64,000 nucleotides of DNA from assembly GCA_029964075.1 (NCBI GenBank), contig CM057135.1:9946863-10010862 (forward strand). Reading direction: 5' to 3'. Shown here in pieces: positions 464 to 34,499 of this stretch. The notes beneath the pieces are model-generated. The model had not been told where the DNA came from and made no database searches. It worked only from the letters and a program-made list of their open reading frames with translations. The translations under genes were made by a program, and so were the position numbers. Source of the DNA: Patiria pectinifera. Taxonomy: Eukaryota > Echinodermata > Asteroidea > Valvatida > Asterinidae. Every line of letters begins with the position of its first letter. Positions within the stretch are counted from its first letter, which is position 1.

Positions 464-2090
464 AAATTACTGGTAGTTGTGAACAGTTTAAGCAATCTTA
501 AAGAATGTCATGAATGTGAAGATCTATCAGGAGCTATTTTCTTTGTATGGGCCTTATTCACGAGTTGGCCATTTTCGTTGAGTTCACAGAACATATATCA
601 TTAATTCTTAACTGTTGAATGGGATGGCGGATCATGGCGCCAGACTGTTTTTTGCAAGCATAATGCAGACTTTTTTGCGTTTTTTGTTTTTGTTTATAAA
701 ATCTGGCTTTAAACATTAGGCAACATTTAATTACAAATTTAAAATTAATAATTCAAGCGGACCGGAATTAATTAGTAATTGACATATTGTGTAAGAATTG
801 TGTCAATGCAGCTTGTGAAATATTGACCAATTACATTATGTACGCGGAATGCGCAAAATTTGAGACAAACAAAAACTTAGTGTACAAAAACCCCATAGGG
901 CTGTATTAGGGGCATGGCTAACCCGCAAACGGCACAAGTTTAATTAACTTCTAATTTCTCTACACAAGTTGCAAAAATGAATTTTTTTACCTCACTCTCA
1001 ATCCAATATGGTCGATATCTGAATAAGACCCATTCTCTTTACTAGTTTTTTTTTGGGGGCCTTATGTCCTCCAGGGTACAGTGTATGTCAGTTTTGGAAA
1101 CAGTGCTAAACATGTACAATAAGTATGTCCATTCGGTGCAGCGCTAGTATGGACGTTACCTCGGTTTTAGCGCTCCACTCAGTACAGCCACACATGTGTT
1201 GCGTGTTGTTCGAGTAGTGGGCAGGTTGTCATGAACACATTAATGTCAGTGGAATGCAAATGATGGTTGACATGTACAGCAGATGAGTTCAGTTAAGGTA
1301 TTAATAGTGATTAATTATGATTGTTTGGTTATTCACTTATGAACATATTTGGGAATTGGAATTGGGAATTCTTGTGATGTTGTTGGTGATGCGATGTACC
1401 ACCTGGAGGGTTGACTATAAAATTTGGGATATATAAAGCACGAACAACTGAAAGATTTGTTTTGTGTATATTTATGTGGGACTAAATAACTTGGAAAAGC
1501 CATAATCCAGCCCACCAGTGTGTGAACGAGGGAGTGTGCAACGGTAAAGAGATTAAGTGTAAAATGCACACTGCACTTGGATAAATATTGTATTTGGGTA
1601 CAATTGTATTTTTTTGCTAGATTAATTTAAAAAAAAAAAGGTGGTGCTAGCCCTAAATAGTACAAAGTGCATTATATGATATTTTGTTTGAGCAAACATG
1701 GATGGGAAATGTTGCGAACTTGCATGTAATATAGAGTTAGAAAATTTGCCTTCCCCCAGATGTGCAGCTTGGAAATTATACTGTAACGAAACAGGGGTAT
1801 TTGTAGACTGATATCAAGCATACCCATTTACAATGTGCTGCGGCACGCCGCTGGCTGCACTGCACTAGGAGTTTAAATGCCCGTGCCAATTTTGAAATGG
1901 TGTCACCGCCAGCCATGTCGTCGCCATTGAGTAAATATCGTTATACTTTTATAGGCCTATGTGCATTTTTTATGGACTCGCCGAAAGTTATTTAGGCTTA
2001 GTATTTTTTTTTTGGCATGAATGAGATTTTATTTCTGAGTTAGGCCCTGCCGTAATTTATTAATTCTATCACTACACTATATTATGAATA
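464..2090. other. No gene seen; downstream flank of the RAG1-like gene
   Basis: No open frame here resembles a known protein and no splice-linked exon series is apparent. The stretch is AT-rich with a few homopolymer runs. It probably contains the 3' untranslated region end and downstream intergenic DNA of the minus-strand RAG1-like gene. I looked for Kelch- or PHD-like coding sequence, as expected if a RAG2-like partner lay tail to tail, and saw none. Confidence 0.5.
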
Positions 2091-2098
2091 TGAGGCAC

Positions 2099-2125
2099 TT
2101 TATTTTAATACTCGCTCATTTTATT
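2099..2125 (-). terminator. Polyadenylation signals of the RAG1-like gene
   Basis: On the minus strand two AATAAA hexamers occur at 2125-2120 and 2104-2099, about 43 and 64 bases after the stop codon at 2168-2170. That spacing suits a short 3' untranslated region. The cleavage site itself cannot be placed from sequence alone. Confidence 0.5.
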
Positions 2126-2167
2126 TTAGGCATGTTGAAGGCTCACGATGACTATACCAGGATGACT

Positions 2168-5100
2168 TCAGTTGGCTGGGGAGTGCTTCCGCTTCTGACG
2201 GTGGCTCCTGGATGGACGAAGATTTCCGATGGAGGGATTGACCATGAGAAGATGTTCCCTCATCACACATTCCAGCTTGTAGAGGTCTGGATCGCTCTTC
2301 CGTGTGTTGCGTGTGCCGGCAAATCTTCTGTTGAGTGTGTTGAAGACCCCATGCATGGATTCACCCTCTTGTTCCCCTAGCAGCCCCAGCCCGTGTTGTG
2401 TGCGACGAATGAATGGAATCATGTGATCCTCCATCATGTGCATTTTTGGAGGAATGGTTTTTGTTGGGAAGTTGCAGCGAAAGAATTCCAGAAATGTACT
2501 GATGTCATGCTCTGCAGGAAGACATGAAAAAAAGAACAAGGTAGTCTGTAGCACATCATTATTGCGCATTGACACGTGAACTAAAATGTTTAAGCAATCG
2601 TTTATTTAATAAATACAAGTGTGTATATTTACATTTTTAATGCTGCTGTATTTTATTCTGATATTGACTTATCCATTCTACCTGTCCAAGTTATGCTCAC
2701 TTACCAAGCTGTGTTATTTCTGTCAAATCCAGGTGTCTACTTGCATCGTAAACATTGTGGCATTTGGAGAACAGTGTGAACAATGTTGAAAACTTCTCTG
2801 CAATGCATTCTGCCTCCTTGTGCTTGGCTGGACAGAGATGAGACGTTTCATCAACGATTGAAGATGTTAGCTTTTGTATGTTCACCTCCTGTAGTAAAAA
2901 AAAATCAAATTTGATTAACGTTTACAACAAATTTTGTGAAGAATAAATGTAAAGTTCCATCGTATTTCCGTCGCATGTACCATACCTTCAGGCATTTATG
3001 AACATGATTGCCGATGAATGTGTTGGAGTAGTAAGCTTGGCGTCTGACTTTGATTTCTTGGAGTGCCTCTTCAAGTTTTATGAGAAGTGGGTTGTTTCTT
3101 GAAGGTACCGGTTGAATTTCGACTGATGCTATTGTTTCCTGTAAAAATAGATTTTAAAAACATTCAGTAAATAAAGCTTGAATGGCAGACAAACACATTT
3201 AGCTATGGAATTGAAAATGCATACTGATCTATAGGGCAAGCAAAATACCTGTCTGGCTAATTCTTCATTTAGTTTCTTGATCTCTTCTCCAGTTTCCACA
3301 GTGACATCCTGCACATCCACCGTGTCATTGATCAGCGCAACAACTGCTAGCTGTTCCTTGAGGTCATCAATCTGACCGCGAATCTCCTCAGCCCTGTCCC
3401 TGGCAGCAAAAACCTCAGAGAGTTTCGCCACTTGCAATGGTAGGGGGCCATTGGGTAAGGAGGTCACCTTGTCTGGGGCTCGTGCCAGTGTTTCAGCTAT
3501 ACCTTCAAGCAGTGTACAGCATTCCTGCTCCAAGAGGGTGAAAAGCTTGAACCATACACCAAGGCCTACGTGTAGGGATGGGGGACAAACCTTTAAAACA
3601 TAAATGAGGAAGCTGAAAATTGACATTGATTCAATATTTGTTTTGTTTGAAGTTATCATATTTTCATTTCAGATTACCTCTCACTTACCAAATTGATAGG
3701 AACATCAAAGAACCTATTGTCGATTACATTGTTGAAGTTCTTGGCATTCTTGATAGAACTTCCAGCTTCAGTGAAATTGGTGTGATCCTGGGCTAGTGTC
3801 TGGAGATTTCTTGGGGTGCAAGGGGGCCGATCATCTTTCTTCATTGCCATAGCTTTACTTGTTATTGTACACCACAAGCATGGGTGACGACCTGAACAAA
3901 TAAGATAGTGACACTGCATTATTTATGATGACATTTTTTCATGCAGAGAGCATGTAGTTTTTTTTGATAGGCATTTACAAGCTTAGTTTTGGATGATGCT
4001 GTACTTACCACTTGGACCGGACAAGCCGTACATCCTACATAGGAACTCGTAATCTCCGAAGAGATAAATTACAAGTTTCTTTCCTCTGAGAATGAAGGAC
4101 AAAATACGAGGTTAGTGGTTAGTGCAAAGATTGTGTTTATCAAATAAATTGAACACAGAAACAATTTTGCTAGCAAACACAATAATCACTTTTGTGGCAT
4201 ACCTCCATGTTGTGTTAGTGATGGACTCCATTTGCTCCTTGTACCTGTCCAGTGCCATGTGCAAATTTGAAGCACTGTCTGAAGCTTCAAAAGCACAGAC
4301 AACACTAGTGTTGTGGCGTGAATTGGGACTGGCGATGTTAGCTACTTCAAGCATTAGCTTGAAACTTCCGCCCCCTTTATCACCGCCCAATTTGAGCCAA
4401 ATTTCATCTGTGGGCATTCCTTCAGTCCAGCGCAACTTGCCACATCTTTAAACAAAGGGTACATTGATTCATATAATATTAACTGACTAGCAAGTAGTGT
4501 ATTGAAATGAATGTTATGTGTGTACATGTGTATAATATAATCAGGTGGGGATCCGGCGGGCAAAATCAGGTGGGAACCCCCCCCCCCCAGTTTTGTCAAA
4601 AACAAATTGTGTTCATAGAAATTCCTAATAGATATAGCCCCCCTCCCTTAATTCCCCCGCTCTGACCCCCTAAAAATATAAAGGCAGCTGTGCAAAAAAA
4701 ACCGTACAGAGCCAGCTTGGTTAAGGGGTATTTGTACACTATTCTGTAATATAGTGTTACTAATCGTCTGATTTGAACAGCGTCCCCATTGAAAGTATGG
4801 TGCGAGCTCCCCCCCCCCCCTATTGATTTGGAGACCAAATTTCGCCACACCCACCCCGCAAAAATTTCTAGACCCACCCCTAATAATTCATGACATATTT
4901 ATCTGAATATTAAATGTATACCTGTCATATTCATCCAGCAGGCCCAAAGTGTATGTCTTCAAGTCAGTGATGGAGATGCAGGGAGCTGGTTTACTCATCA
5001 AACCACCGCTGCCATCCTGTGCAACGAAGGGCATCCTCTCTGCTTCCAAGATGTCCTGCCCAACAGAGGCTTTTCCGAGACTGCGGCTGGCTTGTTCATT

Positions 5101-6938
5101 GGCCATTACAAGATTGTACTGTCGTAACCACCTCATTAAAGCAAAAATATGGATTCCTGATAGTTTACATAGAAGGTAATGAAGTACAGTGGAACGCTGC
5201 TATAACGAACATCGCGGGATCCACATAAATTGTTCGTAATAGCAATCATGATGTTCGGTATAGCCGAATGTTCGGCATAACGACGTTCCACTGTACTTAT
5301 CATGGAATGCATTCGGTCAGAAGGAGAATAATTGACAAATCACGATTTAATAACCAGTTGGAAAGCATGTTGGTCAGTAGCAGGTAATCACAGCTCATGA
5401 GGGAATTCATAGTTGTTTTTGAGTCCTCATAAGTACTGATTTATATAAATCTGAGTCATGGGCTATGAAGGTGGAGTCTTGAGTCTGGAGAAGTCATAAA
5501 GGTCAGGGGTCAAAGATCAGGTTACTTTAAGGTCAAGTGTGATGCCAGGTCTTTTTTTTTTCTAAAGAGAGGTTAATTAATTTTTTTATTGTTCATTTGT
5601 TTTAAAAGGGAGCAATATAATTCTTACAATTTTAGCTCTCGCAGTGCAGACCAAGACAGACCTAAATCAGATTGGATGGCTAGCTCTTCCAGCGGGGGGA
5701 TGAATGTTTGAAGCTTTATTTTTTGCAAGAGGTTTTGCAGGTCGTTTCTGGTAGCTGTACCAAGAAGGTGCTGCAGCTGATGTGTTGACTGTCCTCCACT
5801 TATTTCTCTCAATTGGTCTTTTATTGTTTTGGTTCGGCGGAAGAGTGTTCTCGGTGAGACCTCGGTGCTTTGCTTGTCAGGGTGTGGGACTCTTTGAATG
5901 TACATTGCCTATGACAGTACCAAATGAATTAATGATGAACTGATAAAAAAAAATGATTTTCGATTTATTTTTTTTAATTAAATAAGTGAGAGCAGTGTAC
6001 AGTCAAGGAATTAACGTGAGAAGGGTTTTACCACCCAATAAATTAACACAGTAACTTGCCTTTCCACCAGTAGAAAGCCGAGCAACAGGTCCCTTGTTAG
6101 ATTCCAGGTGTTTCTTCAACAGTGTTGATGTAACCTTTTCACGCGCTTTGCCAAGTGCAGATATATTCCTGTTCATTATATCCTGGAATGTGTGCTCATC
6201 AACTTCTTGTGATGTCAGTGGGTCAAAGCAGTTGTGTTCTGGTGTATTTTTCAACCAACTACCCCTTCTGCATGTTCTACAAGTAACTTTAGCATTTTCC
6301 ATGGTGTGGATGAAATAATTGCGGACAGGTTTGGTCTCCATCAAATTTATGTTTTTTTTAGAACTTGGACAAAGCACTGTTGAGGATGAGGCCCCAATGA
6401 ACAAACTATGCAAGCATTCTAAACAAAAAATGTGCTGACATTGGGTTTCAACCGGTCTGTGAAGAATTTTGCTACATAGCTGACAGCGTATGGTAGACTC
6501 ATCAGTAGTGAAATTGTCCCTGCAAAATGCTGTTGTAGTCATGGCCAAGTTGTTGAGATGTGCAACAACTGCATCTTGTGCTGCTTGCTCAAGTCCATCC
6601 AGTTTCTCTAGTCTGGCATATTTAGCTGCTGGCCGACCTGTCTTGTCACCATTCACTTTAGCACATATGGAACATGTCCCACTTTCTGGATGGGGAGGCC
6701 ATTCGTTAGGAGGTTGATGTTTTTTTGGGAGGTACAGATTGGAATAGCAGAGATGGCAAATCTGTGTGGGATGACGATGTAGCTCGTCTGCAGATACATC
6801 TATGAGGTATTCGGATTTTATTTTGTCTGCATAATTACTACATCTCTTCAGGGTTTTCTTTTTCTTTTTCCATTTTTGTACAATGCCGCCACACACCCTG
6901 CACAATTTTTCAAGGTTGTTGATGTGCTGATCATTCAT
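2168..6938 (-). CDS. RAG1-like protein, 971 residues, ten coding exons
   Basis: Coding exons, 5' to 3' on the minus strand: 6938-6060, 5908-5628, 5131-4922, 4445-4203, 4085-4009, 3891-3689, 3590-3249, 3138-2986, 2888-2705, 2511-2168. All ten join in phase (2,916 nt) without a stop. Seen: N-terminal Cys/His clusters (C13, C16, H56, C61, C64, C89, C92); a RING finger (C152, C155, C167, H169, C172, C175, C190) with RAG1 spacing but serine at the last cysteine; a second Cys/His cluster (220-237); a GG...QHLL stretch like the RAG1 nonamer-binding region; GGDKGGGS with D479; C568/C571 (CLWC) and H882/H887 (Hx4H), matching the RAG1 zinc ligands. RAG1 D708 aligns with G640 and E962 with Q905, flanked by Glu. 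RAG1 is the V(D)J recombinase subunit. This relative more likely binds DNA or acts as a ubiquitin ligase than cuts, which is inference. Length is close to vertebrate RAG1 (about 1,040). Residues about 650-745 include a predicted coiled coil. A better fit to another RAG1/Transib-derived family is possible. Confidence 0.85.
5187..5293. mobile_element. TA-flanked MITE (pogo/Tigger-like) in a RAG1-like intron
   Basis: A 107-base segment starts CAGTGGAACG and ends CGTTCCACTG, flanked on both sides by TA. Internal sub-terminal parts (CTATAACGAAC and its rough complement) are also inverted. TA duplication with CAGTG termini fits Tc1/mariner-pogo non-autonomous elements. It lies in the intron between coding exons 2 and 3 of the RAG1-like gene. 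Confidence 0.75.
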
Positions 6939-7783
6939 CTTGATTTGATCTAGAGTAAAAAAAAATGAACTTCAACAATGTAAATTCACTTGTACTGATG
7001 TCTTATGGTGTCAATTATTTTTAAGTCAAGCAAAATAAAATTAGTTGAAACGTTTTTGTCAGGGCTGTGGAGACCAACATGGTATCGTGTTTATGGTTTA
7101 GATTAGAAAACAATGATCCTGTGATTTCAGAGTAAAAATTGTACTGTACATTGCAATGAAATTGTTATAGATTTTTTTGGAGTCCCTTTTATTTTAATTT
7201 AGACGATTTGGGAGAAAATAAAGGAAGATTCTAAGAGCAATTGGCTGGTGTTGTTGAAAAGATACAAATGTATAAAACAATGTGAGATTCTTATAATGAA
7301 ATATGAATTAAAATTGTAATTTTTTTTCCAAGTCTCAACCCTGATTTATACAACAAAACATATTTGCAGAAAGACCTGGAGTGATGTTCAATAATTAAAT
7401 AAAAAGAGAGGACGAAAATCTGATTGGTTTCCTTTTGATCCTTATTACATTTGTCTATCTTTGTTGCTATCATTTTATCCCAATTTCATAAAGGAAATTG
7501 CGTGTGAAGCGATCACAAAGCAGACGTATATTGTACATGTACTATGTACACGCGTGCGGCCGGCCGGCCGTACATATTTGTATACAATGTACATGTACAT
7601 TTACGCCCGTATTTGCACTCGCGTGAAAAAAAGCCCTTGGAATCCCCCATATTATGGCAAATGTAGAGGGTTTGCTCCCGCATAAATCTGTCAACATACA
7701 AATCCATGTTCTTTTATAATACCAGTGACCTTTCCCTGCTTAATAAAATTCACTTTCGTTCAAAAAGAGACCCGAAAACTCAC

Positions 7784-7905
7784 CCAAAATGACTTTGCCG
7801 ACGAGCGCAAAGAGAATGGCGGTGCGGAGATTTACACCGAATTTCCCGCGGAAGGAGCTGTTTACAACATCTTTTGTGTCGTATTCTAATATTATAAGTA
7901 TTTAG
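7784..7905 (-). other. Probable 5' untranslated exon of the RAG1-like gene
   Basis: On the minus strand a strong donor (GG then GTGAGT) begins at 7783. The matching acceptor, a T-rich tract ending in CTAG, lies about a dozen bases before the ATG at 6938. Between them (7783 to about 6950) is an AT-rich intron with nothing coding in it. The segment just upstream of the donor is GC-rich and contains TTCCCGCGG, an E2F-like sequence. The 5' boundary is a guess. Confidence 0.45.
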
Positions 7906-8320
7906 GAACTGTTATTGGTCGAATGTTTCCAGGATACGTTGAATATTCAGTATCATTTACTCTTTTTATTATTCATGTCGCGCCAAAACTTGGGAACGGG
8001 TCACGGCTTATGCATATTCATTATACAGTGACCTCTTGTTAAAACTCGCGCATGCGCACAACCTAGTGGCGTCAATACTGCGCTCGTAAACAGCGGTGTG
8101 GCCTGGCGTGGGTTCGGCACTCGTGGTAGAGACCTCGGTGAGCTTTCAGCGTGTAAACAAGCCTGTTGCGACACTGCAAAGCAAAGTGCTGAATTCACCG
8201 TGTGAAGCGAGCGACCTCGTGGGAGAAAGCCCGGCGTGCACCCCGGTGCGATTGGTTAGTGTAAACGGACTGGAGCGGGAGAAAGCCCCAGCCTGCCTGA
8301 GAGCGATCGGTCAGTAAAGC
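7850..8320. promoter_or_regulatory. GC-rich, possibly bidirectional promoter region
   Basis: This CpG-rich stretch stands out from the AT-rich flanks. It holds a perfect GCGCATGCGC palindrome (8048-8057), the consensus NRF-1 site, and TTTTGGCGCGAC on the minus strand near 7979-7991, an E2F-like site. It lies upstream of the putative first exon of the RAG1-like gene. No partner gene is identified on the plus strand. Function is inferred from motifs only. Confidence 0.45.
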
Positions 8321-9060
8321 TGGACTTCGTTGTTTACATCCCCCTGTGCATTTTAAGACCTTATCTAATAAGATTTGGGGTGGATTGTTGTTAAGTCGGG
8401 ATTATTTAATATAGGGCCTGAGTTAAAATAATAGTCGGACCCGGAGTAAATCTGAAGGTTGGGGAACAGTTAGGCTTAGTTCAGACTTAAGGATTGTCTT
8501 CCGTTGTTTGTGCCATTTGGCGTAGCTGCGGTATAGCTGCCCTGTGAGTCCGTAGGCTTGTTTTCTCATTGAGGAAGTAGTGTAGCTAAGACTGTTCGGA
8601 AGGTCTGTCTGCCGTTGATCTATGCCAAATGGCGAGGCTGCGGTTGATGCGGACTTGGACAACTGAGAGCTCGCTTTTCCTGCCGGGGAACCCGCTTAAT
8701 TGCGATTTTGTGGAGGGAATTGCATGCCGTTGTCCCGTGCAACTTTGGCGTAGAAACGGTTGATTGCGACCCTATACAGTCTGTGAATCCTGAGTTTCCC
8801 GAAGGTTTACTGGGTTAATTCAGAGGACTATTGTTATCATCGGGTGGGTTATAACGTTACTAACTACCACGTGTGTGTAACTTGCTGGTGAAGCCAGTAG
8901 TAAGAACTGTTTTGTATTGTATAAATCTATTCTGTTATTGTAGACCTCATTAGGGGTATTTTGTGCTAAGTGAAAGAACACTAGCCCGTTATTTAAGTCA
9001 GTGGTGCAGACGACCACTTTATAAACTAGGAACCCCGAGAAGTATAGGTGAGGTATACCC
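8321..9060. other. No gene seen
   Basis: About 740 bases with no coding similarity recognised and no splice-linked exons. It may be a transcribed leader or part of an uncharacterised repeat leading into the tandem region that follows. Confidence 0.3.
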
Positions 9061-9475
9061 AAGTGAGGTTTACCTTAAGTGAATTGCCCCGCTAAGCTGC
9101 GAGTTATAATTGTGCAAGTTAATCAAAGGGGAGTGCAGTTGACCCCTGTTGAACCAGACGATTATAATTGTATAAGCTAAAGGGTGCAGTTGACAAAAGA
9201 GCTGTACGAAGGTTATAATTGTACATGCTAATGACAAGGGGTGTAGTTGACCCCTCAGCTAACAGCGAGGTTTACTTGTGCTTATTATCACAGCGAGGTT
9301 TACTAGTGCTTATTCTAAGAGCGAGGTTTACTAGCGTTCATTATCACAGCGAGGTTTACTAGTGCTTATTCTAAGAGCGAGGTTTACTGGTGCTCATAAC
9401 CACTGCGAGGTTTACCAGATTATCACAGTGAGGTTTACCTGAATTTATCTTAACGGTGAGGTTTATCATTGTATA
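9060..9475 (+). repeat. Short imperfect tandem repeat with GAGGTTTAC core
   Basis: From about 9060 to 9240 a block with GTTATAATTGT and GTGCAGTTGAC recurs three times. From 9262 to 9475 a unit of about 25-35 bases with core GCGAGGTTTACTAGTGCTTA recurs about eight times, decaying at both ends. It encodes nothing recognisable. It may be the internal repeat region of an unrecognised element. Confidence 0.7.
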
Positions 9476-9886
9476 AATTATTGAATGGTGACGCATTGAC
9501 ATTATATTTGAAGTGTGCTAAAGGAATAAACTAACTGATTAACGTCTTGGAATAACTGGTCACTGTGTAGCTTATGTAGTCCCGCTCTCTGTTGGATATA
9601 TCTGAATAAGTTAGTCCCCTCTTTTGTCAATAAAGTCAAGTACTTCATTGCAGATCGGTGGTATATTTCCGCCAAACGAACAGCTCCTAGGCTTAGTCCG
9701 CCATTCGTTAACTATATCCCCCCCCCCTTGTGTCAGGGTAACCGCTCATCCTTGCGCGAGGTTTATAAATATTTTTGTGGGTTAAGGCCAGGTCCAATTT
9801 CATCCTTCGAACAGGTCAGACTGTCGTGTCACCTAGTTATTCCCGCCACAAAGGGTGTATAGCTCGTTTCGCCACAATACTGTGTT
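9476..9886. other. No gene seen
   Basis: No coding similarity. An AATAAA occurs near 9630 followed by a run of cytosines near 9718. Nothing else is supportable. Confidence 0.3.
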
Positions 9887-9890
9887 TTAA

Positions 9891-10376
9891 AGAGGTTGTG
9901 GAATGCTCGAAGACATTTCCGTCATTTTTTGGGTATATGTAGCCTAAGGTGTGATGAAATAAAAACGACTATTGTTTCTGTCATGAAATGAGTACAAAGG
10001 GTACTTTTGAGAGCTATTTTTCAGGTCCTGTTTCGACCCGAACGTGCAATTTGTGTTAAAGTCGTCGTTGCGGGCAGCAAACAAAACACAGTAAATCGTG
10101 ACGTAATAAACAGGACTCGTTTATGCTACTCTGTATCGGGAGTCCTGTTTATTACGTCACGATTTACTGTGTTTTGTTTGCTGACCGCAACGACGACTTT
10201 TACACAATTTGCACGTTCGGGTCGAAACAGGCATGACAGGACTTGAAAAACAGCTCTCAAAAGGACCTTTTGTACACATTTTATGACAGAAACAATAGTC
10301 GTTTTTATGTCATCACGCCTTAGGCTACATATACCCCAAAAATGACGGAAATGTCTTCGAGCATTCCACAACCTCT
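9891..10376. mobile_element. TTAA-flanked perfect-hairpin MITE, copy 1
   Basis: A 486-base element is flanked on each side by TTAA (9887-9890 and 10377-10380). It is almost entirely one palindrome. The left half begins AGAGGTTGTGGAATGCTCGA and the right half ends with its complement. The arms meet around 10130 with only a few unpaired bases. TTAA duplication is the hallmark of piggyBac-type insertion, so this is probably a non-autonomous piggyBac-like foldback. Its ends differ from those of the piggyBac element at 25-28.5 kb. Both strands are open for about 80 codons, an artefact of the palindrome. Confidence 0.8.
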
Positions 10377-10950
10377 TTAAAGAACTGGGGAAAAAAGCCT
10401 TTTATTGCAATTACGCAGAAAATGTTTGATAAATTGTTTACTAATAGGCCTACTTTGGAGTAAGGGTTGACTATTTAATGGAAGACAGAGTCAAAGGAAT
10501 AAGTAAGGGGTGGTGGTGGTGGGGGGATGCCTTCTATTTGATTACTATGCCCTGTGGGCGTATCCGCCATCCCATTGAATATCTTGCATAAAATAAAAGA
10601 ACGTTTAAGTGCCTTCCAGTGTACCACCTCCCATTTTAAAAATGTACCCCTCAGCAGTTTAACTCTAGTTATGCCCCTGCATGGAGACGAGAATAAACTC
10701 GAGACACAATAACATCAAGCTTTTAAAAACAGTAAATGCTTGTTAACTTACGTAGCAGTGTCGGAAATCTGGGAAAATAAAATCCGTTTGCCAGGCCAGA
10801 AATATTGTACTTCTACGGCTTGTGATGTTGATGGGCTCTATCATGTGTATCATGTATAATGTGTATTATGTACACATACATGTACATGGTCAGTACATGT
10901 ACAATATGTACATGTAAATGCATTTTCGTGTAAGTAGGTGTACACCTTCA

Positions 10951-14495: not shown

Positions 14496-16205
14496 AAACA
14501 GAGCAGTTAAAGATAAAAACAAACCAAGATATCATAGCAATGCAACTTATAGAAAAGGTGTTTTAAAGCATAAAAAAGAGAATTATGTCAACAATCCGGA
14601 ATACAAAGAGAAAAAAAATAATTGTGCGAAAAGAAAATACCATTGCAATCCTGAATATAGACGGAGGCTTATCGATAGGGGGAAAACAAAGTATAACCAG
14701 AATCCCGAGTACAGAGAGAAATTGATCCATAAGGGGAAAATAAAGTATAGCCAGAATCCTGAGAACAGAGAGAAGTTGACCCATAAGGGGAAAATAAAGT
14801 ACCATGATGATGTAGGATATAGAGACAAGCTAGTAAAGTATGGAAATATCAAGTATCATAAGAATGTTGCTTATAGGCAGAAGAAAATAAAAAGAGTTAA
14901 ATGTAAATACCATGGTGATGCTACATATAGAAGCAAACTCATTGCAAGCATAAAAAAAGAAATACGATGTGTGAGTTCATACATGGCTAATTTAATAAAG
15001 TATGGAAAACAGAAGTATAAAATCAGTAGTAATTACCGTAAAAGTATGGCAGAGATGAATTACAGACGTGCTGTGATTGAAAAAGAGAAAAGACGTAAAA
15101 TTTGTTTTGTTACAAAGAAGTTTCGTGAAAGTATAGCTAGAGGACCTGAGTATGTTTGTGCTTGCTGTCATAAACTGCTGTTTCAAAATCAAGTTCTGAA
15201 GTGTAATTTGTGTAAATACAAAGATGAAACATGCATTAGTAACAAATATCTGCATACTTGTAGTGACCACTGTGAACCCCTGTGTATTATTGCAGAATCA
15301 AGCAGATCATGTTTATAGATATGTTATACCTGTCACAGGAAATTACTGGTTAATAAAGGCCCTGCTGAAGCTAATGTGAATAATGTAAACCTGATGGACA
15401 TCCCTGAGGAAGTAGCTTGTTTGAATACATTAGAAGAGCATCTAATTGCAATAAATGTACCGTTCATGAAGATGATTGCATTGCCGAAAGGTGGACAACA
15501 TGGTGTACGAGGTCAAGTTGTATGTGTGCCATCAAATATAACAGACACAGTGAAAGCATTGCCAAGACCTCAAAGTTATGATCAGATGATCCAAGTCAAG
15601 TTGAAGAGGAAATTGACTTATAAAGGATATTATCAATATCTGTTTGTGAGTAAAGAAAATTTGGAGAATGCTTTACGTTATCTTCAACATCAAAATAAAT
15701 GGTTCAGTGACATTGAAATTAATAGTACTTGGGACAATGCATTGTGTGAAGATAATGATGAAATTGATCAGTCTGTACATGACGTGAAAGAAGAAGCCAA
15801 AGATGAAAGTGATAACAGTGATGAGGAAACTGATGACGATCGTTTACGAGGCATTGCATTAGACACTTGTCTTCAGCCAACTAACGTAGGACAGGAAATA
15901 CTTGATCAGTATTTTGACGAAGTGCCGTGTGTTGCTCCTTGTGAAGGCAATAGTCCAATTAGAGTCCTAATGGAAAAGGGTAATGAAGCCAAATGCTTTC
16001 CAGCATTATTTCCGTCATGTCAACATATTTTTGATGATGATTGTGAAGTGAAATTGACAGTTTGCCGATATCTCCATAACTGATTGATGAATGTTGATAA
16101 TAGATTTGCAATGTGTACTCAATATATCTTTTATGCACAGTATTTGTCAGAGATTCAGAGAGTTAGGTCTAGTGTTTCGATTGCATTGCGAAAAGGATCT
16201 GATAA
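14496..16205 (+). pseudogene. Helentron N-terminal region: KxKY repeats, zinc cluster, DUF6570
   Basis: The frame opens at about 14496 after a stop, before the first usable ATG (14722). It contains about eight copies of a 17-19-residue unit of the type KYxxNPEYREKL. A Cys-rich zinc cluster (YVCACCHKLL, then CNLCKY) follows at about 15155-15280. An in-frame TAG (15316-15318) interrupts a segment that continues ICYTCHRKLL. From 15376 the DUF6570-type region runs (LPKGGQHGVRGQVVCVPSN), then an acidic linker. A TGA stands at 16081-16083, after which the same frame continues to a frameshift in an A-run near 16205. DUF6570 commonly precedes the Rep domain in metazoan Helitron-like proteins. Confidence 0.75.
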
Positions 16206-17050
16206 AAAAGTATAATGGTGACAGTGTGGATGCCTCCATGATCAATGACAGGGACCAATTACAAGATATTTTGAAGTCAGACAGTGGATACAAATTTCTC
16301 AAGCCAATTCGTGGTACACCCCCATACTGGCTAGCAGCACAGAAAGATGTTTTAGCTATGATCAGACAGTTAGGAATACCAGCATGGTTTTTTTCATTTT
16401 CTGCAGCAGATATGCGATGGCCTGAGGTAATCAATACAATTTTAAGACAGCAAGGTGATTCTAGAGATGTGAAAGATTTGGACTGGAATGAGAAATGTAC
16501 CATATTGCGAAGTAATCCTGTAACTGCTGCGAGAATGTTTGATCAGCGATTCCATACGTTTCTGAGAGATGTAATACTGTCCAGAGCTGAACCGATAGGA
16601 CAAGTCAAAGACTATTTTTACAGAGTAGAATTTCAACAAAGAGGATCTCCATATACACATTGTCTTTTCTGGATTGAAAATGATCCGAAGTTGGAAGATG
16701 ATAGTAAAAGAGAGGTTGTACAGTTTGTTGACAAATACATAACTTGTAAATTACCATCAAAGGACAACGATGAAGTATTACATGAAATTATTAGTCACGT
16801 ACAGTTGCACAGCAGAAAGCATTCCAAGTCATGTAAAAAGAAGGGTACTGAGTGTAGGTTTTATTTCCCAAGACCTTCATCTGAACGAACATTCATTACT
16901 GAGCCCATGCCAACAGATGATGAGGATGAAACTAATGGTGAATGCAGTGAACGAAATAAGGCTAAGGAATTGCTGCAATCAATATGGACTGCAATACAAA
17001 AAAGTGAGAATGAACACATGCAACCAATGAATTGTTTGCAAGCATAAATC
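16084..17050 (+). pseudogene. Helitron Rep nuclease (Helitron_like_N), HUH-type, broken
   Basis: The start ([14 protein letters not shown]) is in the upstream frame. After the A-run near 16205 the frame shifts, and motifs such as GTPPYWLAAQKD, PAWFFSFSAADMRWPE and RGSPYTHCLFW follow. The last is the HUH site, but its first His is Tyr (codon TAT) where relatives have His. HUH nucleases bind a metal through both His and use Tyr to nick DNA in rolling-circle transposition. A further frameshift occurs near 17040. Confidence 0.75.
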
Positions 17051-18055
17051 TGACACAAAGTGATTTTGAAAAAGCTAACAATGTGTTAAGTTGCAAAGCA
17101 AGTTTAGTTCATAAGAGACAGCCACAAGATGTATGGGTTAATTGGTACAATCCACATTTGATAAGATGTTGGAACGCAAACATGGATATTCAGTACATTT
17201 GTGACGCTTATGCTTGTGTTGCTTACGTGGCATCGTATATATCCAAAGCTGAACGTGAAATGGGTATGTTGTCACACGCTCAGGCAGAGGCTCAGCAAGA
17301 AAATTTGAATGCAAGACAGGGCATGAAGGAAATTGGCCGTGTGTATTTACATAACCGTGAAGTATCAGCACAAGAAGCAGTATATCGTGTCTGTAATCTG
17401 AGATTGAAAGAAGGATAAAGGAAAGTGGGATTTATACCTGTCGGTGAAAATCCAATAAGAATGAGTAAGCCTCTGAGTGTTATTCAAAGTACATGTAATG
17501 AAGATGATGATAATATTTGGATGACTAGTGGAGTTGATAGGTATCTAGCAAGACCAAATACTGATGAATTTGAGACAATGTGCTTGGCAACATTTTGCTC
17601 AGATTATAGGGTAATTTATACAAACATGGCTAAAACAACTCGTTTGCCAAAACATGCAATGAAGAATGGTTTAGGGCACATACAGAAACGTAGTCGAACT
17701 GATCCAGCAGTGATAAGATTTTCTAGATTTTCAGTATCAAAATGTCCTGAAAAGTACTACCAGAGCAAGTTGCAGTTGTATCTGCCATATCGTGTTGATG
17801 TCCAGTTGAAACCACAACAGTTTGAAACATTTGAGGAATTTTATAGAAATGGCGTTATTAAGTTTGGTGGTGTGTGAAAACCTGTGAGAATTATTGTGGA
17901 AAGAAACCAGTCATTGTATGAAGCTAATGATAAGGCAGTAGATGAAGCTGAGGAAATGCTGGAGAAGACGCTAGGGCATTGATAGCTCCAGAAACTGGGA
18001 AGGACAGACTTGAATGTGAAGGACAGCAACAAGCATAAGTAAAAGAGAGTGACAA
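17032..18055 (+). pseudogene. Helentron Rep C-terminal part and linker
   Basis: This continues the Rep region with [12 protein letters not shown], which holds the paired tyrosines expected for the nicking site. In-frame stops are at 17416-17418 (TAA) and 17875-17877 (TGA), and a frameshift lies near 17980. The part from 17425 to 17870 ([22 protein letters not shown]) is typical of the segment between Rep and helicase. Confidence 0.7.
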
Positions 18056-18074
18056 TGAGTCCGATATTCCTGAT

Positions 18075-19570
18075 TTGAAATCCAAGAAAAATGATGATAT
18101 GAAATATACAATTGAGCCACACAGATTAATTGTATGCAAACAAGAAGCAATGAATTTATTAAGGTGTCTCAAAGCTAAACAAAAACGGGTGTTTTATAAA
18201 GTGAGACAATGGTGTTTAAACAAAGTGAATGGTAAAGATCCTGGTCCGTTTCGTGTTTTTGTCACTGGTGGAGCAGGAACAGGCAAAAGCCATTTGATTA
18301 AATGTATATATTACGAGGCAACAAGACTCTTTGGAAGAATGGTAGAAGATCCAGACGACATCTCAGTTTTACTTACAGCGCCTACAGGTGTTGCTGCATA
18401 TAATATACATGTTGCTCCAATTCACAGTGCTTTGTCAATAACAACAAATGTCAGATTGCCATATCAACCTCTGAGTGAAGAAAAGATCAGTACAATACGA
18501 CATAAATTAAGACAACTACAAATTCTAATTGTTGACGAGATCTCGATGGTGGGTCATAAACTCTTGTGTAATGTTCATGGTCGTCTGCGACGGATAAAAC
18601 AATCAAGGAATCTAGTCCTTTTGGAAATGTCAGTGTATTAGCCGTTGGTGATTTTTATCAGTTGCCCCCAGTAAAAGCGAAATCTTTGTACCAGACTGAT
18701 GTTACAAGTGACTTGTGGAATGATAAGTTTGTCAAAGTAGAACTAACTGAGATAATGAGACAAAAGGATGATGCACAGTTTGCTGAAGTATTTAATAGGT
18801 TACGAATCAGAAAGAGAAAGGAAAGTTTAGGAGCTGATGATAAGAGACTGTTACAATCACGTGAGACTGGAGAAGATTGGACTGATGCTGTACATATTTA
18901 TCCTTGCAATAAACAAGTCGATGAGAACAATACACAGACTCATTTTACTAAGTGTTCAGATTGTGTATGTGTTCTTGCTAAAGATTTCCAGAAAGATGCC
19001 AAAAGTGGGAAAATGATATCAGTTCGGAAATCAGTCAATAAATCCTCAATGACCAATTTACCTGATTCTTTGTGGCTTGGTGTTGGTGCTAGAGTCATGC
19101 TTACAAGGAACCTTGATGTATCTGATGGACTTGTTAATGGAGTATTTGGAATTGTAAATGCCAGTGTAACATTACCTAATGAGCAGTCACCTAAGTTGGT
19201 TAATGTTAAATTTGACAATGACAATATTGGATCAAAATTGAACAAAAGTCCTCTATAAATGATATAGATGTTGTTGGTATTGAAATGGTAGAAGAAAACT
19301 TGTATAAACAGTGTGTCCGACATCAGTTTCCACTCAAGTTAGTTTGGGCATGTACAGCTCACAAGGTTCAGGGTATGAGTTTGGAAAAGGCAGTTGTAAG
19401 TTTGAACCATACATTTTCAGCAGGACAGGCTTATGTTAGTTTGAGTAGAGTTGTTTCACTGAATGGTCTTGTGATAGAAGGGTTTGATGAGAAGTACATT
19501 TATTGTAATGATGCAGTTGCTGAAGCAATGAGTACAATGTCATCGTACATTGAGGAGTCTGATGAGAAGG
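18075..19570 (+). pseudogene. Helentron PIF1-family helicase, two frameshifts
   Basis: Superfamily 1B helicase motifs appear in order: Walker A GGAGTGKS (about 18267), TAPTGVAAY, Walker [11 protein letters not shown] (about 18525), GDFYQLPPVK after a frameshift near 18620, a GARVMLTRNLD segment (about 19085), then, after another shift near 19240, TAHKVQGMSLEKA and YVSLSRV (about 19350-19450). The enzyme would unwind DNA during rolling-circle transposition. The break points separate three frames, so no intact helicase is made. Confidence 0.8.
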
Positions 19571-19599
19571 GAAGTAATAATGTAGGTGATCAAAATGAA

Positions 19600-20347
19600 A
19601 TCAAGGGTGATGTACATGTATGTGTTAGCACAAGCATTGCTATGCATAATATTCAAGGACTTCAGGCACATGTAATGGATTTGAAAAGTAATGATGAAAT
19701 GTTGTCGTGTGATTTCATTTGCCTAACAGAAACATGGACTGACAAAGACTTTGATTGTGATATGGATATGATTGATTACAAATGGTATCATCAACCAAGA
19801 AGTATGTCTTATGAGAACTCTAGTCGTGTGGCAAGTACGTTAAAAGAACAGTGTCATGGAGGTGTAGCTATATGTGGCAAAAAGGACAGAGTGTTCAGTA
19901 GGATACATTTGCCAGTCAACAATGTTGAATACATCGCATTCCAGTTACATGTAATTTCAAACGAGTCATTACCAGAAGTTGTTGTAATAGTTTACCGACC
20001 ACCATCATATACTTAAAGCAATTTACATATACATTATAGGTGCTTGAAATGTTGTTGAATGAGATACACAAGAATTCAAACAAGTGCATTGTTTATGGGT
20101 GATTTTAATGAAGATCTCATGAAAAAAAGAGTCTTGTGTGAAGAAATTGATGGATGATCATGGATATAATCAGTGTGTAAGTGATGCAACAACTGAAAAA
20201 GGCACTTTACTTGACCATGTTTATGTAAGAAACATTGATTGTTTTCATGTTGAAATTAGTCCAACTTACTTAGTAATAGCTACCATGAAGCAGTCATTAT
20301 TTGGTTGTGACTTTATGAATGATTTAGTTCGTATTGCGCAATTTTGA
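19600..20347 (+). pseudogene. Helentron endonuclease (EEP/apurinic-type) domain, broken
   Basis: Following the helicase in frame: HNIQGLQAHVMDL, CDFICLTETW, GGVAICGKK and VVVIVYRPPS. After a frameshift near 20016 come the residues MGDFNEDLM (about 20100) and LLDHVYVRN (about 20210). These are the usual motif series of exonuclease-endonuclease-phosphatase domains in retrotransposons and Helentrons. At least two frameshifts are present. Confidence 0.7.
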
Positions 20348-23167: not shown

Positions 23168-23640
23168 CATAGTATAATCGTTAAACTAATCCATTTGCAG
23201 CTGGATGGTAAGCAGTGGTGCGAATACGTTTGGTACCTAGTAGTTGTGATAGATGCTTGAAAAGATTTGATTCAAACTGGCTACTTCTATCAGTAGTAAT
23301 TGTAGTAGGGACGCCAAATGTGGCTATCCAATTGCTGACAAAAGCTTTTGCAACTGTTTCTGCAGTAATGTTAGAAATTGGTATTGCTACGGGCCACCTG
23401 GTGAATCGGTCTATACATGTAAGTAAGTATGAAAAACCATTAGATGGAGGCAAGGGACCGACGATATCAATATGTACATGGCTGAAACGAGCGTCAGGTG
23501 TTGCAAAGGTACCTATCGGAGTCACTGTGTAACGATGTACCTTGGCGCGTTGACACTGAATGCAAATGATTGGTCCAATTTCGAACATCTTTATTGATAG
23601 AAGGCCAAACAAATCTTTGAGTTATTAAGCGTTGTGTTGC
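23168..23640 (-). pseudogene. gypsy integrase, truncated and inactivated
   Basis: The end of the HHCC zinc motif (CIQCQRAK) is followed by the catalytic core with [13 protein letters not shown] (first Asp) and [10 protein letters not shown] (second Asp). At the position of the third catalytic residue, after [10 protein letters not shown], there is an in-frame TAA (about 23179-23181) where the family has Glu, and similarity ends about ten bases later. Another frameshift near 23605 separates it from the RNase H frame. Integrases insert retroelement DNA. This one is truncated and dead. Confidence 0.8.
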
Positions 23641-24988
23641 TCTAATGCCTGGATGGGATAGACCTGGAGTGAATCAAATATATCATGCCTAAACTCTGAT
23701 GGAATATATGGGCGTGGTTGACCAGTTGATGTATTACAAACAATGGTATTATGTGATGTTAGAATAGGCAATTCTTCAAAATGAAGACTAGACGATTCAC
23801 GTAGCTTAATTAGCTCTGGGTCTGTCTTCTGCTTAAGTGCTATTTGGTCGAAATCCACAATTGTGTTTGATAGGCTTGTGTGATTAAGTGAGTTCACGTC
23901 ATACCTTGAGAGAGCATCTGCTACAACGTTTTCTTTACCTTTAATGTGGCGTATGTCGGTACTGTATTGAGATATATAGTCTAAATGACGAATTTCTCTC
24001 GGTGAGTAGCGATCTGGCTTTGCGTTGAATGCATAAATCAAAGGTTTGTGATCAGTTATGATATAAAAATCACGACCTTCTAGAAATAAATGGCGTATCG
24101 ATAAGTATACGGCCAACAACTCACTACCAAATGTACTATACCTGGTCTCTGCTGGCTGTAAACGCTTAGAAAAAAACGAGATTGGTCTCATTTCATTATC
24201 TATGCACTGATTAAGTACACCACCAACCGCAACATTTGACGCATCGACCATTAAACAAAGTGGAGCATCGCTAACTGGATGGACTAGCAAGGTGTTTTCA
24301 GCTACAGTGGATTTAGCTCTTTGAAAGGCAAGTAATTCTTGTTCTGAAAGCTCAATCGCATTGTTCTTTTGCTTGCAACAAAGAAGATCTGTCAAAGGTT
24401 GCAAAATGTCAGCGCAGTGTGGAATAAAACGCCGATAGAAATTTATCAATCCCAAAAATTCTCGCAGTTTACGCAGTGAGGTTGGTGCTGGGAAGTCTTG
24501 AATAACCTTAACCTTACTTTCCAAAGGTCTGATACCGTGACAGTCGATGTTATGACCTAAAAATTCTAGGCTAGTTACTCCAAACTCGCATTTGCTTGGG
24601 TTGATTACATCACCAAATTCACAAAGGCGATCGAAAAGTAGCCTAAGATGACGTTCATGCTGTTCGGCATCATCACTCGCTATCAATAAATCATCGATAT
24701 ATGCGTAAACAAAATCGAGACCATGCAAGACTTGATCGATAAATCCTGAAATGTTTGAGCTGCATTCCTTAAACCGAACGGCATACGAATATATTCGAAG
24801 AGGCCGAAAGGTGTAGTAATCGCGGTTTTAGGAATGTCTTCAGTCGCAATAGGTATTTGATGGTAAGCCTTAACTAGATCGATTTTGCTAAAGATCTTTT
24901 TACCATGTATACTTGACGTAAAATCGTGAATATGCGGAATGGGATATCTATCGGGTTCTGTGATATTATTTAGCTAACTCTCCTATGA
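23625..24988 (-). pseudogene. gypsy reverse transcriptase (C-terminal part) and RNase H
   Basis: On the minus strand the segment resumes just after the piggyBac insertion with [24 protein letters not shown] and [15 protein letters not shown] one-base frameshift near 24741 follows, then [12 protein letters not shown] (the YIDD catalytic box, about 24690). RNase H motifs come next: MVDASNVAVGG (Asp), FGSELLAVYL (Glu), YIITDHKPL (Asp). The open frame ends at 23625. It would copy the element's RNA and degrade the template. Confidence 0.85.
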
Positions 24989-27900
24989 TCAGACCTTTCA
25001 AAACCCCTCAAATCTGGAAGCTGGCATATTGAAGGGGAAAAACGCTGGACCTTTTAAAACCCTCCAGAATTTATTGTTACTGCACTACCTCACCTTTCAA
25101 TTCCTTTCGAAAGGTATTGAAATGTAAAAAAATCGGGCAATAATATACCCCTATGATAACGGTATAGGTAGTGTATTATATAATGGTCAGACCTTTCAAA
25201 ATCTTTCGGAAGGATTTGAAAGGTGGAGCAATGGTTCAGCCAAATAACAGTACATTGCAATGCATAAATGGTTGGACCTTTCAAAACCTGTTGAACTTTT
25301 TTGAGGGGAAAGTAACTGCTGAGTGTTTTGAAGTATCCCTCCCAAAAAAACAGCCAAACCTTTCAAAACAAGTGAACTTTTTTTGCTTGGGTATTTTCTT
25401 TCTTTTTTATATATTTTTCCCATATCTTTTGGGGATGGAAGAGGCATACAAACATTTCAAAACAAATGAACGTTATTTTCTTGGATATTTTCCTTTTTTT
25501 TACACAAAGTATTTCAAAACAAATATAGACCTTTTTTCTGGGGTATTTTCTTTTTCTTTTTTTTCTTGTTCTCATATCTTTTGGGGATGGAAGAGTGGAA
25601 GTTCTTTTCGGTCTGATGATGGAAGTGTGTCTAGTCGACGTGGACACCCCCGGCAGCATGATAGTTCAGGAAGCAGACCTCCCGGCAGAGATGAATACTG
25701 CAACTCAGGCAGCCCATGCGTGTAACTACAGGATAGCCTTTTGTTGTTGTGCGCCCTTGGCGTCTGCACATGATGCACATCTTGGGGTGCTTGGATGGCA
25801 TTCTGATTGACTTGTGCTTGGGGCCGTTGATGACAGGAATCGGAGGCAGCAAGGGTTGATAGGCGGGGGTGCCTTCTGCAAAGCCTGCAATGAGGGATGT
25901 CCCGATTGCTACTGCAAACAGCCGGTGTTTGTGGGTGTCTGGCTGGTTGTCCTCCTGCCTGTAGTGCTTGCTGCAGATCCAGGCATTTACCCGGGCCACG
26001 TCAATGATGAAGTATAACACCTTTCTCCACCATTTCATTGACTGGCGACTACATGTGTGGTACGCTCGCAGTTGGTCCGCTCTATCAACCCCACCCATGT
26101 ATCTGGTGTAGTCCGTGGCGTGGGGAGGGCAGGGGACGTCCTTCTTCTTGGAGCACTTGCTCCCTGGCTCCTTGACATTCCTGGTGAGGACATCATTGAC
26201 TCGGTCGCGGTACGCCTGGTGACAAGTGGAAAGAAGTGACACCACCTTGGTGTCCTTCCACAGGACTACGGTTAGCTGGCGTTGCTGCCTGAAGTACATT
26301 GTACCCCTTGGTGCCTTGTTGAGTTGGGCGATCTTTTGGTGGAGGGTGGGGTTGATGTCCGCACTGGTGGAGAAATCAACGGGGAGGCCTTTGGAGGTGC
26401 GTTTGACTGCTCCGCAGATGTATGTCTCATTTTCGAGCAGTTCTTTGGCAAGGGATGATGAGGTATAGAGCCTGTCGGTAAACAGGTGGTGGTAGCGGCC
26501 GAAAAAGGGCTCCATCATTTTCATTGAGATGGTCTGCATTTTCTGGCCGCTTGATGAGTGGATCATCATGTTGATGAGGTAGCCGGACAGGACTCGCAGA
26601 CGGCATACACCTTCAACCCCATCTTGGTTGGCTTGAGGGGCATGAAGAAGCGGCGGACCTGAGACTTGCTGCCCTTGTATTTTATCATCGCCTCGTCCAG
26701 GGCAAGCTGCTTGGCTGGGTTCCAGCTGGTCAGGCATCTCTGGAGGACAGTGTTCCAGACAATCTTCACCTGGTACAAGGGATTGCTCTTGTAATATTCG
26801 TGCCGCTTCTTCTTGTCCTTGATCTTGTGTGGCCCTTTCAAGGGATTGGTGCAGCAGATCACCTGGGACAGCAGGTTGAATCGGCCACGGGTCATTGTAC
26901 GGGAGATCAAGTTGTTTCTCAAGGCGGGGTGGGTTGACCAGTCGTCCTCCATGTTGAAGTTGGAGTGGACTCCCTGGATGATGCGTATGCCGACCCAGGC
27001 CTTGATTTCCTCTGGTGTTGTTCTTGTCCAGCGATCCTTGCCCTCGCCATTGATATTGGTGTAGCGTGAGATCTTCTTGAACAGCCCCACGGGAAAGAAC
27101 TGCAGGAAGTAGTCCAACGGCTCGTCATCTTCAGGGCGTTGGAAGGTGGGTCCAAGGGGTCTCTCACCCCGGAATCGGTGGACGTGGATCTTTTTTCTGG
27201 ACCTGGTCCATCCATGACGATCACGGGGGTAGTCGGGGTCTCTTGAAGACGGGGGGTCTGGGTCATCCTCAGAGAGTGCCTGGGGTCGCTTTCTAGGCCG
27301 GCCACGAGCCTTCTTTGGAGGTGGTGGTGCGATCTCCTCCGATGACTCCGAGTCTGTGTTGAAGGATAGCTCCTCACTTGAGGCAGGTGCAGAGGAGGTG
27401 GGGGAGTACTCTGGTGGAAGGCTGTACCTCACGTCCTCGTCCTCATCTTCAGTGGTGTAGTCGTCGTCAGTGGATGTTTGGTCAGCAGGTGAGGTGGAAC
27501 AGGATTGGTCTGTTGAATCCGTGGGTGAGTGGCCGGGCGAGATGGAGCAGGATTGGTGTGGTGAATGCGTGGGTGAGTGGCCGGGCGATGTGGAGCAGGA
27601 GTGGTCTGGTGAATGCGTGGGTGAGTGGCCGGGCGATGTGGAGCAGGAGTGGTCTGGTGAAAGCGTGGGTGGGTGGACGGGCGATGTTGAGCAGGAGTGG
27701 TCTGGTGAATGCGTGGGTGAGTGGCCGGGCGATGTGGAGCAGGAGTGGTCTGGTGAAAGCGTGGGTGGGTGGACGGGCGATGTTGAGCAGGAATGGTCTG
27801 GTGAGTGTGCGGGTGTTGTCATTGGAGATTGGTCCAGGAATGAAGATCGGTCAGGAGAGGCCTCGGGTGATATGGCACTCGAGGGCCCAGCAACGTCTTC

Positions 27901-28550
27901 CCTCACTGGCTGGCGTCTTCTTTTCATCCTCTTCATCCGCTTCTTGACTTTCTCTGTTAGCAGTCCTTTCTTGCTCTTCTTCTTTGCTTTCTTCGTTGGG
28001 TCTTTCTTCCCATCAGCTCGATTTTTCTTCTCAACTCTCTTCATCTTGGAGTGAAATAGCTGCAGCTCTCTCTCACTCAGGTTCTCTCGAAGGTTGTGTG
28101 CCTCACGGAAACTCATGGTGGTCACTCGATGATTGCCAGGGGATGACTGGTAGTTTAACACTGTTGAAACCTGGCCTTATATACACTTGTCTCCCATTAT
28201 CATGTCTCAGATTATGTAACATTATGTCACATTACGTAACAAATACACCCGTCTCTTACAATAAAGCAGGTGCATATTTATAATAATAAAAGCAAGAGAA
28301 TTTTTCATTTACATACTGAATACTCACCTTGAATAAAATGGAACGGCCCTCAAGTTGGATTTCCCCATCCTCAGTAATCACAGCCCATGCTTTCTGCAAT
28401 TCGGTTTTCCCGTTGACCAGTAACTTACTGAATTTGACTACAGAGTTGCTTCACCTTTTGAAACCTTTCAAAAAATCCTGAATTGCCAGCACTATTTCAC
28501 CTTTCAAAACCCTTTGGTCGGGCAAATTTGAAATGTTTTGAAAGGTCTGA
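24989..28550 (-). mobile_element. piggyBac element inserted in the gypsy reverse transcriptase
   Basis: Terminal inverted repeats of about 30 bases: the left begins TCAGACCTTTCAAAAC (24989) and the right ends with its exact complement (28550). Variants of CCTTTCAAAAC recur sub-terminally at both ends (25190-25280 and 28455-28510). The transposase gene lies inside on the minus strand. It splits gypsy reverse-transcriptase coding sequence, so it is younger than that copy. A clean TTAA duplication was not found, so the outer few bases are probably altered. Confidence 0.8.
25631..28161 (-). pseudogene. piggyBac transposase, one frameshift
   Basis: ATG at 28161. The first about 85 residues are basic. 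Next come about eight copies of a 16-residue Ser/Pro/His repeat (HSPDHSCSTSPGHSPT type, 27500-27830) and an acidic stretch with an AT-hook-like GRPRKRP. From about 27130 the DDE_Tnp_1_7 domain runs. Catalytic Asp candidates: LALDEAMI, LFTDRLYTS and GGVDRADQL, all present. The C-terminus has a Cys/His cluster (CIMCRRQG, GCLSC, LCREVCFLNYH) as in known piggyBac proteins. The frame changes once near 26590, consistent with a missing base. Cuts and pastes DNA at TTAA. Nearly intact, so possibly recent. Confidence 0.9.
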
Positions 28551-28584
28551 TAATTCTCTGCCAACTGCACTGGGCATAGCAGGG

Positions 28585-29261
28585 CCACAAGGTCTCCAAT
28601 TACCTGATTTTTTAGGCACCATGTGTAAAGGTGAGGACCATTGACTATCTGATTGGCGAATAATCCCCAATTCCAACATATGATCAAATTCGGCTTTGGC
28701 TTCTGGCAGTTTGTTTGCAGCAAGTCGTCTAGGACGTGCATACACTGGTTGTCCGGTAGTTTTAATGTGATGAGTGACATTGTGCTTAACGGAATTTTCC
28801 TGGTAGTTTGGCCTAGTTATTTCTGGATATTGGCTAAGCAAGGAAGTATAAGCATTGTCACTGTTAGGCATGGCAAATATTGGGCTAGGTGAAATTACAG
28901 AGGCTTTGTTACCTGAAACTGTCAGTTCGGTTAGTGAATCAATTAACCTGCGATTTTTAACATCTACCACTAGAGAAAAATGCTTCAGGAAATCAGCGCC
29001 GATAATCGGTACAGGCACAGCTGCGATAATGAAAATCCATTTGTAATTACGCCTTAATCCGATATTCAAAGTCAAAGATCTCTCTCCGTGAGTGGTAATG
29101 GGGGTTTTATTAACCGCTTGTAACGTATATGAACTACAGTTGCATTTATCTTTACTGGTAGGTGGTATCACGCTTACTTCAGCGCCAGTGTCAACTAGAA
29201 ATCTAGTACCAGTAGTTTTGTCTGTAATATAAAATAGACGACTGTTTGTTTTGCCAGACAA
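28585..29261 (-). pseudogene. gypsy protease and N-terminal reverse transcriptase
   Basis: FLVDTGAEVSVIPP near the start (about 29190) is the aspartic-protease active site. The start of the reverse transcriptase follows (RPNYQENSVKHNVTHHI, ARPRRLAANK, SPLHMVPKKSGNWRPCG). Homology stops at about 28585 and resumes beyond the piggyBac insertion at 24,98x, with a few codons lost or changed at the junction. It is one base out of frame with the end of gag. Confidence 0.8.
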
Positions 29262-30165: not shown

Positions 30166-30188
30166 ACTTGGGGAACAAATATACTTAA

Positions 30189-34281: not shown

Positions 34282-34499
34282 TGTACAAGTAGTTTTACTC
34301 CTTACTGAAGGAGTTGTTCCCGAGGGGAACAGGAGTAGAGTATTGGCTCGTATTGTAATTACAAAGCAACTTAATTGATTAACTGAATGAATTCCAAGTT
34401 GGAAGAAAAGTTGACAGAGATAGAAATTGTAGAATGTGAGGATAATTTCAAGGAAATAAATAATTGAAAACAGGAATACACAGAGGTTGAATTGTTATT

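Follow-up and report, generated by a model that had tools for sequence, protein, structure and literature searches.

The 64,000-nucleotide stretch of the Patiria pectinifera genome analyzed here (the window; C7:9946863-10010862 in an assembly of 613.5 Mb and 1020 contigs) carries on its minus strand a ten-exon gene (6938-2168) that, judged from sequence comparison, very probably encodes the transposase of a Chapaev cut-and-paste DNA transposon. The predicted protein has a Chapa-RING-DUF1280 architecture, and the gene lies in a copy of the element that retains only one end. We base this assignment on the PF06918 core, the Chapa and RING parts, the conserved motifs, the relatives of the protein, the terminal inverted repeats (TIRs), target site duplications (TSDs), and intron plan of sister elements, and a 10-bp end shared with these elements. 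The gene is a further example of a known transposase type and not a new RAG1 gene. An earlier note had taken it for a RAG1-like (RAG1L/TransibSU) gene and had named profile searches as one way to refute this reading. These searches assign the core to DUF1280/Chapaev and not to the RAG1 profile, even if both have a predicted fold in common; furthermore, the RING lacks one ligand, and the intron plan is that of the transposon.

Gene structure and domain architecture

Splicing of the ten exons, all on the minus strand, yields a frame of 971 residues and a stop codon. Exon 1 (6060-6938) encodes the Chapa zinc region (residues 3-96), the RING region (residues 147-230), and a subsequent zinc motif. 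Exons 2 (5628-5908) and 3 (4922-5131) are followed by exon 4 (4203-4445), which belongs to the DUF1280 core and provides the first conserved aspartate (D479 in GGDKGGGSF), and by exon 5 (4009-4085) with the second (D549 in FGDYEF). Exon 6 (3689-3891) holds the CxxC motif (C568 and C571), and exon 7 (3249-3590) the LH motif (L637 and H638) and a coil. After exons 8 (2986-3138) and 9 (2705-2888), exon 10 (2168-2511) contributes the Hx4H motif (H882 and H887), the conserved glutamates E904 and E908, and the stop codon.

The splice junctions are supported because the relatives that span them, which were not used in building the gene model, are mostly free of gaps at these positions. Counting relatives that align gap-free over 8 residues on each side, among all relatives spanning the respective junction, gave 30/51, 73/81, 75/94, 79/100, and 98/103 for junctions 1-5, and 87/95, 19/86, 67/81, and 71/75 for junctions 6-9. 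More than half of the spanning relatives are thus gap-free at eight of the nine junctions; the weak junction 7 falls into the unconserved coil. All ten exons have separate alignments to the complete sister element L041 (46-83% identity), which end at a splice site or only a few bases from one. The open frame proposed in the earlier note is borne out by both comparisons. Its consensus splice sites hold up except for the first donor, which is GC (AAG/GCAAGT) and not GT. At this position L041 has GT and a broken second copy of the element GC, and read-through of the close relatives P0107, P0109, and P0110 is consistent with a GT donor.

In Pfam, residues 355-533 match DUF1280 (PF06918) with an E value of 1.5e-20 (74.3 bits, cut-off 25). 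Residues 3-96 match RAG1_imp_bd (PF12560) with 24.0 bits, barely above the cut-off of 23.3, and the RING matches fall below their respective cut-offs. The RING region aligns with the RINGs of relatives and is predicted to assume a RING fold. It features seven of the eight zinc ligands: the eighth, residue 193 (codon at 6360-6362, minus strand), is a serine, whereas five of five close relatives and the second copy have a cysteine. The N terminus is RAG1-like, as had been claimed, but it does not contain the complete C3HC4 RING of vertebrate RAG1.

In the core, the zinc and LH motifs (C568/C571, L637-H638, and H882/H887) are conserved together with the acidic residues D479, D549, E904, and E908. 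The CxxC and Hx4H pairs that had been read as RAG1 ligands are present, and both are also hallmarks of Chapaev. In PMC4079192, Chapaev elements are characterized by the motifs C(2)C, LH, and H(4)H, by CAC/GTG ends, and by a TSD of 3-4 bp. According to PMC3985635, DUF1280 corresponds to Chapaev transposases, which are grouped in one clade with RAG1. The RAG1 profile PF12940 has no match in the window protein up to an E value of 1. A sequence search of the PDB matched RAG1 through the N-terminal part only, and with a profile of the core, none of the RAG1, RAGL, or Transib chains came up at E values of 10 or below. A RAG1-type RNase H-like core fold is predicted for P0012, a relative with 35% identity in the core, which suggests that the window protein belongs to the RAG1/Transib/Chapaev fold group.

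A search with the core alignment found 104 proteins at E <= 1e-5 among the 7996 candidates with the most shared words. Their sources include sponges, cnidarians, lancelets, echinoderms, an acorn worm, a snail, and a ribbon worm, and their listed domains include PF06918 in 95, PF12560 in 11, and RING in 6. The nearest protein found is Asterias rubens LOC117301380 (P0001), with 68% identity over residues 4-565. Its alignment is continuous across junctions 1-4, whereas its database model ends at the exon 5 boundary, and its RING is complete. When the N-terminal 387 residues served as query, four further exon 1 proteins (45-61% identical) were retrieved. The sole Patiria miniata protein among the matches is 36% identical, and no close orthologue surfaced for this species. 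We found no account of the window gene in the literature searched.

Element ends, sister copies, and the lost 3' terminus

The element copy extends over 1819-8098 on the minus strand. Its gene-side 5' end at 8098 is defined by a TIR and by the junction with a dispersed repeat, R. The TIR (8089-8098, minus strand) reads CACCGCTGTT in gene orientation (AACAGCGGTG as found in the window), is identical at 10 of 10 positions to both ends of the sister elements L040 and L041, and directly abuts the repeat. Over its first 268 bp, the element shares 63% identity with the 5' end of the sister; 1160 bp separate the element end from the ATG, compared with 1212 bp in the sister. The upstream stretch shows similar observed/expected CpG ratios in both (1.12 in the window and 1.08 in L041).

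Across 6771 aligned columns, the identity between L040 and L041 is 99.2%. These elements measure ∼6.77 kb and are bounded by CACCGCTGTT...AACAGCGGTG TIRs, which are found in all three sister copies. Two of these three copies are flanked by TSDs of 4 bp (TGAC in L041 and CCCC in the third copy). The sister copies thereby supply the ends, target duplications, and intron plan of a Chapaev element. The family probably moved recently.

The right part of repeat R (8099-9472, plus strand) served as insertion target and is uninterrupted at the insertion point in four of four other copies looked at. Its left remnant (1778-1818, plus strand) has 41-bp matches to the loci L034, L036, and L039 and a 35-bp match to L037, and R resembles a long terminal repeat by eye. 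The left limit of the element is set by the break of homology with the second copy at 1817 and by repeat R at 1818. The second copy (C7:19306498-19313004) has kept the 3' TIR and lost the 5' end. Comparisons with this copy and with other copies of R place a putative deletion junction at 1817-1819, where ∼457 bp of the 3' end including the TIR (measured in the second copy) and ∼210 bp of R are missing. We therefore infer that the 3' end was lost by a deletion that also removed this stretch of flank. The window copy would have inserted into R and undergone this deletion later. As it possesses one end only, it should have lost its own mobility. Its protein could nevertheless work in trans on those sister elements that carry the same 10-bp ends. 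By analogy with RAG1 and Transib, with which it shares the predicted fold, the DDE core would cut the element ends, and the N-terminal zinc parts may aid dimerization or DNA handling.

Several observations weigh against the Chapaev assignment or its details. The window copy lacks the 3' TIR, so that its TSD, expected at 3-4 bp, is not visible, and L040, one of the three sister copies, shows no TSD in its flanks. The 10-mer of the 5' end recurs once in the window, at 30675; were it not for the repeat junction and the 63% identity to the sister, this 10-mer would be weak evidence. Moreover, 8 of 83 conserved columns deviate in the window protein, including 659, where all 81 others have D, and 761, where all 72 have G, and the fold argument is based on P0012 and not on the spliced window protein.

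In the genome, a profile search located DUF1280 at at least 78 places. The best 20 of these contain pieces with 22-54% identity to the window protein. Nine of the 20 proved to be near copies (mostly 93-98% in long pieces) of a Chapaev family separate from that of the window. The 5' end CACGGCAGTT is present in all nine, and in L025, the only one with both ends found, the TSD is CATG. Exon 1 has 85 matches in the genome, among others itself, the second copy (88%), and the sister group (52-53%, three open copies).

Selection on the frame and alternative histories

The earlier note had suggested selection because the gene is open while nearby transposons are riddled with stops. The latter is true of broken pieces inside the window, but open copies of related Chapaev elements also occur elsewhere (for example, the three sister copies in exon 1). 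Comparison with the second copy gives synonymous (pS) and nonsynonymous (pN) differences per site of 0.061 and 0.045 (dN/dS 0.73, 929 codons). Away from indels and from exon 5, which has no reliable alignment in the second copy, the values are 0.056 and 0.038 (805 codons), with 0.041 in introns. Unpolarized, this comparison provides weak evidence of constraint. Polarization of the 67 amino acid differences by outgroups assigns 42 derived changes to the second copy and 8 to the window copy, with 17 undecided (p 1.2e-6). A looser set yields 48 compared with 11 (23 undecided), and close outgroups alone 27 compared with 10 (p 0.008). If equal synonymous branches are assumed, simple arithmetic puts omega near 0.2 for the window copy and near 1 for the second copy.

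We also simulated neutral change along one branch, sized to the separation of the window and Asterias proteins (60 runs). On average, 8.4 stops accumulated over 971 codons, with a minimum of 1, and 5.7 over 562 codons, with a minimum of 0; the window frame contains none. Because of the asymmetry in derived changes and the absence of the stops expected under neutral drift, the open frame was, as far as sequence can tell, kept by selection, and the suggestion of the earlier note is confirmed. Selection via transposition before the loss of the 3' end would be a simpler explanation than selection via the host afterwards.

That the copy is dead, its frame open by luck or by very recent death, is doubtful: the lost RING cysteine at 193, the deviations at 659 and 761, the GC donor, and the missing 3' end fit such a copy, but both the simulated stops and the relative rates of the two copies are at odds with it. 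The second copy itself has in-frame stops at residues 107, 473, 607, and 664 and several frame-breaking indels.

It is unlikely that the gene was domesticated, that is, that an immobilized Chapaev transposase gene with one end lost is kept by the host under purifying selection. The intact frame of 971 residues, the derived changes accumulated in the broken copy, the lost 3' TIR, and the closeness of the Asterias protein would all agree with this history. However, the same pattern would be expected had this lineage remained active as a transposon until recent times and the second copy died early. Both the intron plan and the CpG-rich region upstream are transposon features, a RING ligand has been lost, and the P. 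miniata match is distant.

That the gene is a genuine member of RAG1L/TransibSU, equipped with the two N-terminal zinc domains and akin to the immediate ancestor of RAG1 in vertebrates, is practically untenable, as the searches for PF12940 (up to an E value of 1) and for RAG1, RAGL, and Transib chains (up to 10) had no match, whereas a RAG1L piece from the same genome matches BbRAG1L at 1.2e-86 by single-sequence search; PF12940 occurs at five places in the genome, none of them in the window gene; the sister TSDs are not of 5 bp, the length reported for Transib/RAGL in PMC8355894 and PMC4411706; and the sister element has no room for RAG2L. In this complete 6.77-kb element, ∼980 bp follow the last aligned residue and 1212 bp precede the ATG. 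No RAG2L partner was recognized either among the open reading frames (ORFs) in 1-2167 and in the 8 kb beyond, read by eye without a profile search.

Genomic surroundings and relation to RAG1

Contig C7 also carries, ∼3 Mb from the window, a tail-to-tail RAG1L/RAG2L pair (L044, C7:13011601-13020800, at 4215-7982 of this locus). Two minus-strand ORFs match PF12940 (one TAA was noted), one of them being the ORF that matches BbRAG1L, and a convergent plus-strand ORF shows Kelch matches and a PHD match just above the cut-off. By its sequence, L044 is a true RAGL locus of this genome. C7 (44.85 Mb, 7.3% of the assembly) harbors at least 58 of the 78 DUF1280 places (at least 53 of these within the first 23.3 Mb) and at least 4 of the 5 RAG1 places, compared with at least 15 of 110 piggyBac pieces. 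With this one transposon family as control, general transposon load does not look like the reason for the enrichment.

Other elements in the window are a Helitron over several ORFs (14497-20016, plus strand) with Helitron_like_N and PIF1 helicase parts, and a piggyBac-type transposase (PF13843; 25631-28176, minus strand) with a Ser/His/Pro-rich tandem repeat stretch at 27494-27815. Retroelement pieces lie at 23181-24827 (reverse transcriptase/RNase H), 28497-30246 (aspartyl protease), and 32185-35335 (weak reverse transcriptase match below the cut-off). Nested long inverted repeats at 9886-10381 are hairpin-like (146 nt at 94% and 92 nt at 97%), and arrays of satellite-like 171-176-bp repeats occupy 46034-46527, 48482-51585, 55472-55906, and 62428-62888. 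The adjoining locus L029 (window -7999 to 0) appears Maverick/Polinton-like by eye, with an integrase-like ORF and an 883-aa polymerase-like ORF (DTDS motif) that has no Pfam match.

Among known systems, the window element resembles the Chapaev transposons with Chapa and RING of Kapitonov and Jurka (2007), as described in PMC4411706, where Chapa and RING occur in two Chapaev subgroups. Both share Chapa, RING, the DUF1280 core, CAC...GTG ends, and, in sister copies, a 4-bp TSD; the window copy differs in having lost the 3' end, which is kept in the second copy and the three sister copies, and the eighth RING ligand. With RAG1L/TransibSU (ProtoRAG) and vertebrate RAG1 it shares the N-terminal zinc architecture, CxxC/Hx4H, and the core fold predicted from a relative, but not the PF12940 core, the TSD length (4 bp in sister copies), or a RAG2L partner. 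N-RAG-TP of Aplysia is likewise a transposon protein resembling the RAG1 N terminus; as described in PMC8355894, it is set apart by comprising the N-terminal-like part only.

The P. pectinifera gene adds a caution that CxxC, Hx4H, and an N-terminal RING are insufficient by themselves to call a RAG1. In a genome that also carries RAG1L/RAG2L, it represents a Chapaev transposase of full length, including both N-terminal zinc parts of the RAG1 type. It is very unlikely that the host keeps an immobilized Chapa-RING-DDE transposase under selection on a chromosome rich in Chapaev and RAG1L/RAG2L; if true, this would be a second, independent case of RAG1's fate. A link between Chapaev and the origin of the RAG1 N terminus has already been proposed in PMC4411706. 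Taken together, the joined architecture and the RAG1-core fold prediction support the proposed union of Chapa, RING, and the DDE core before RAG1, Transib, and Chapaev split.
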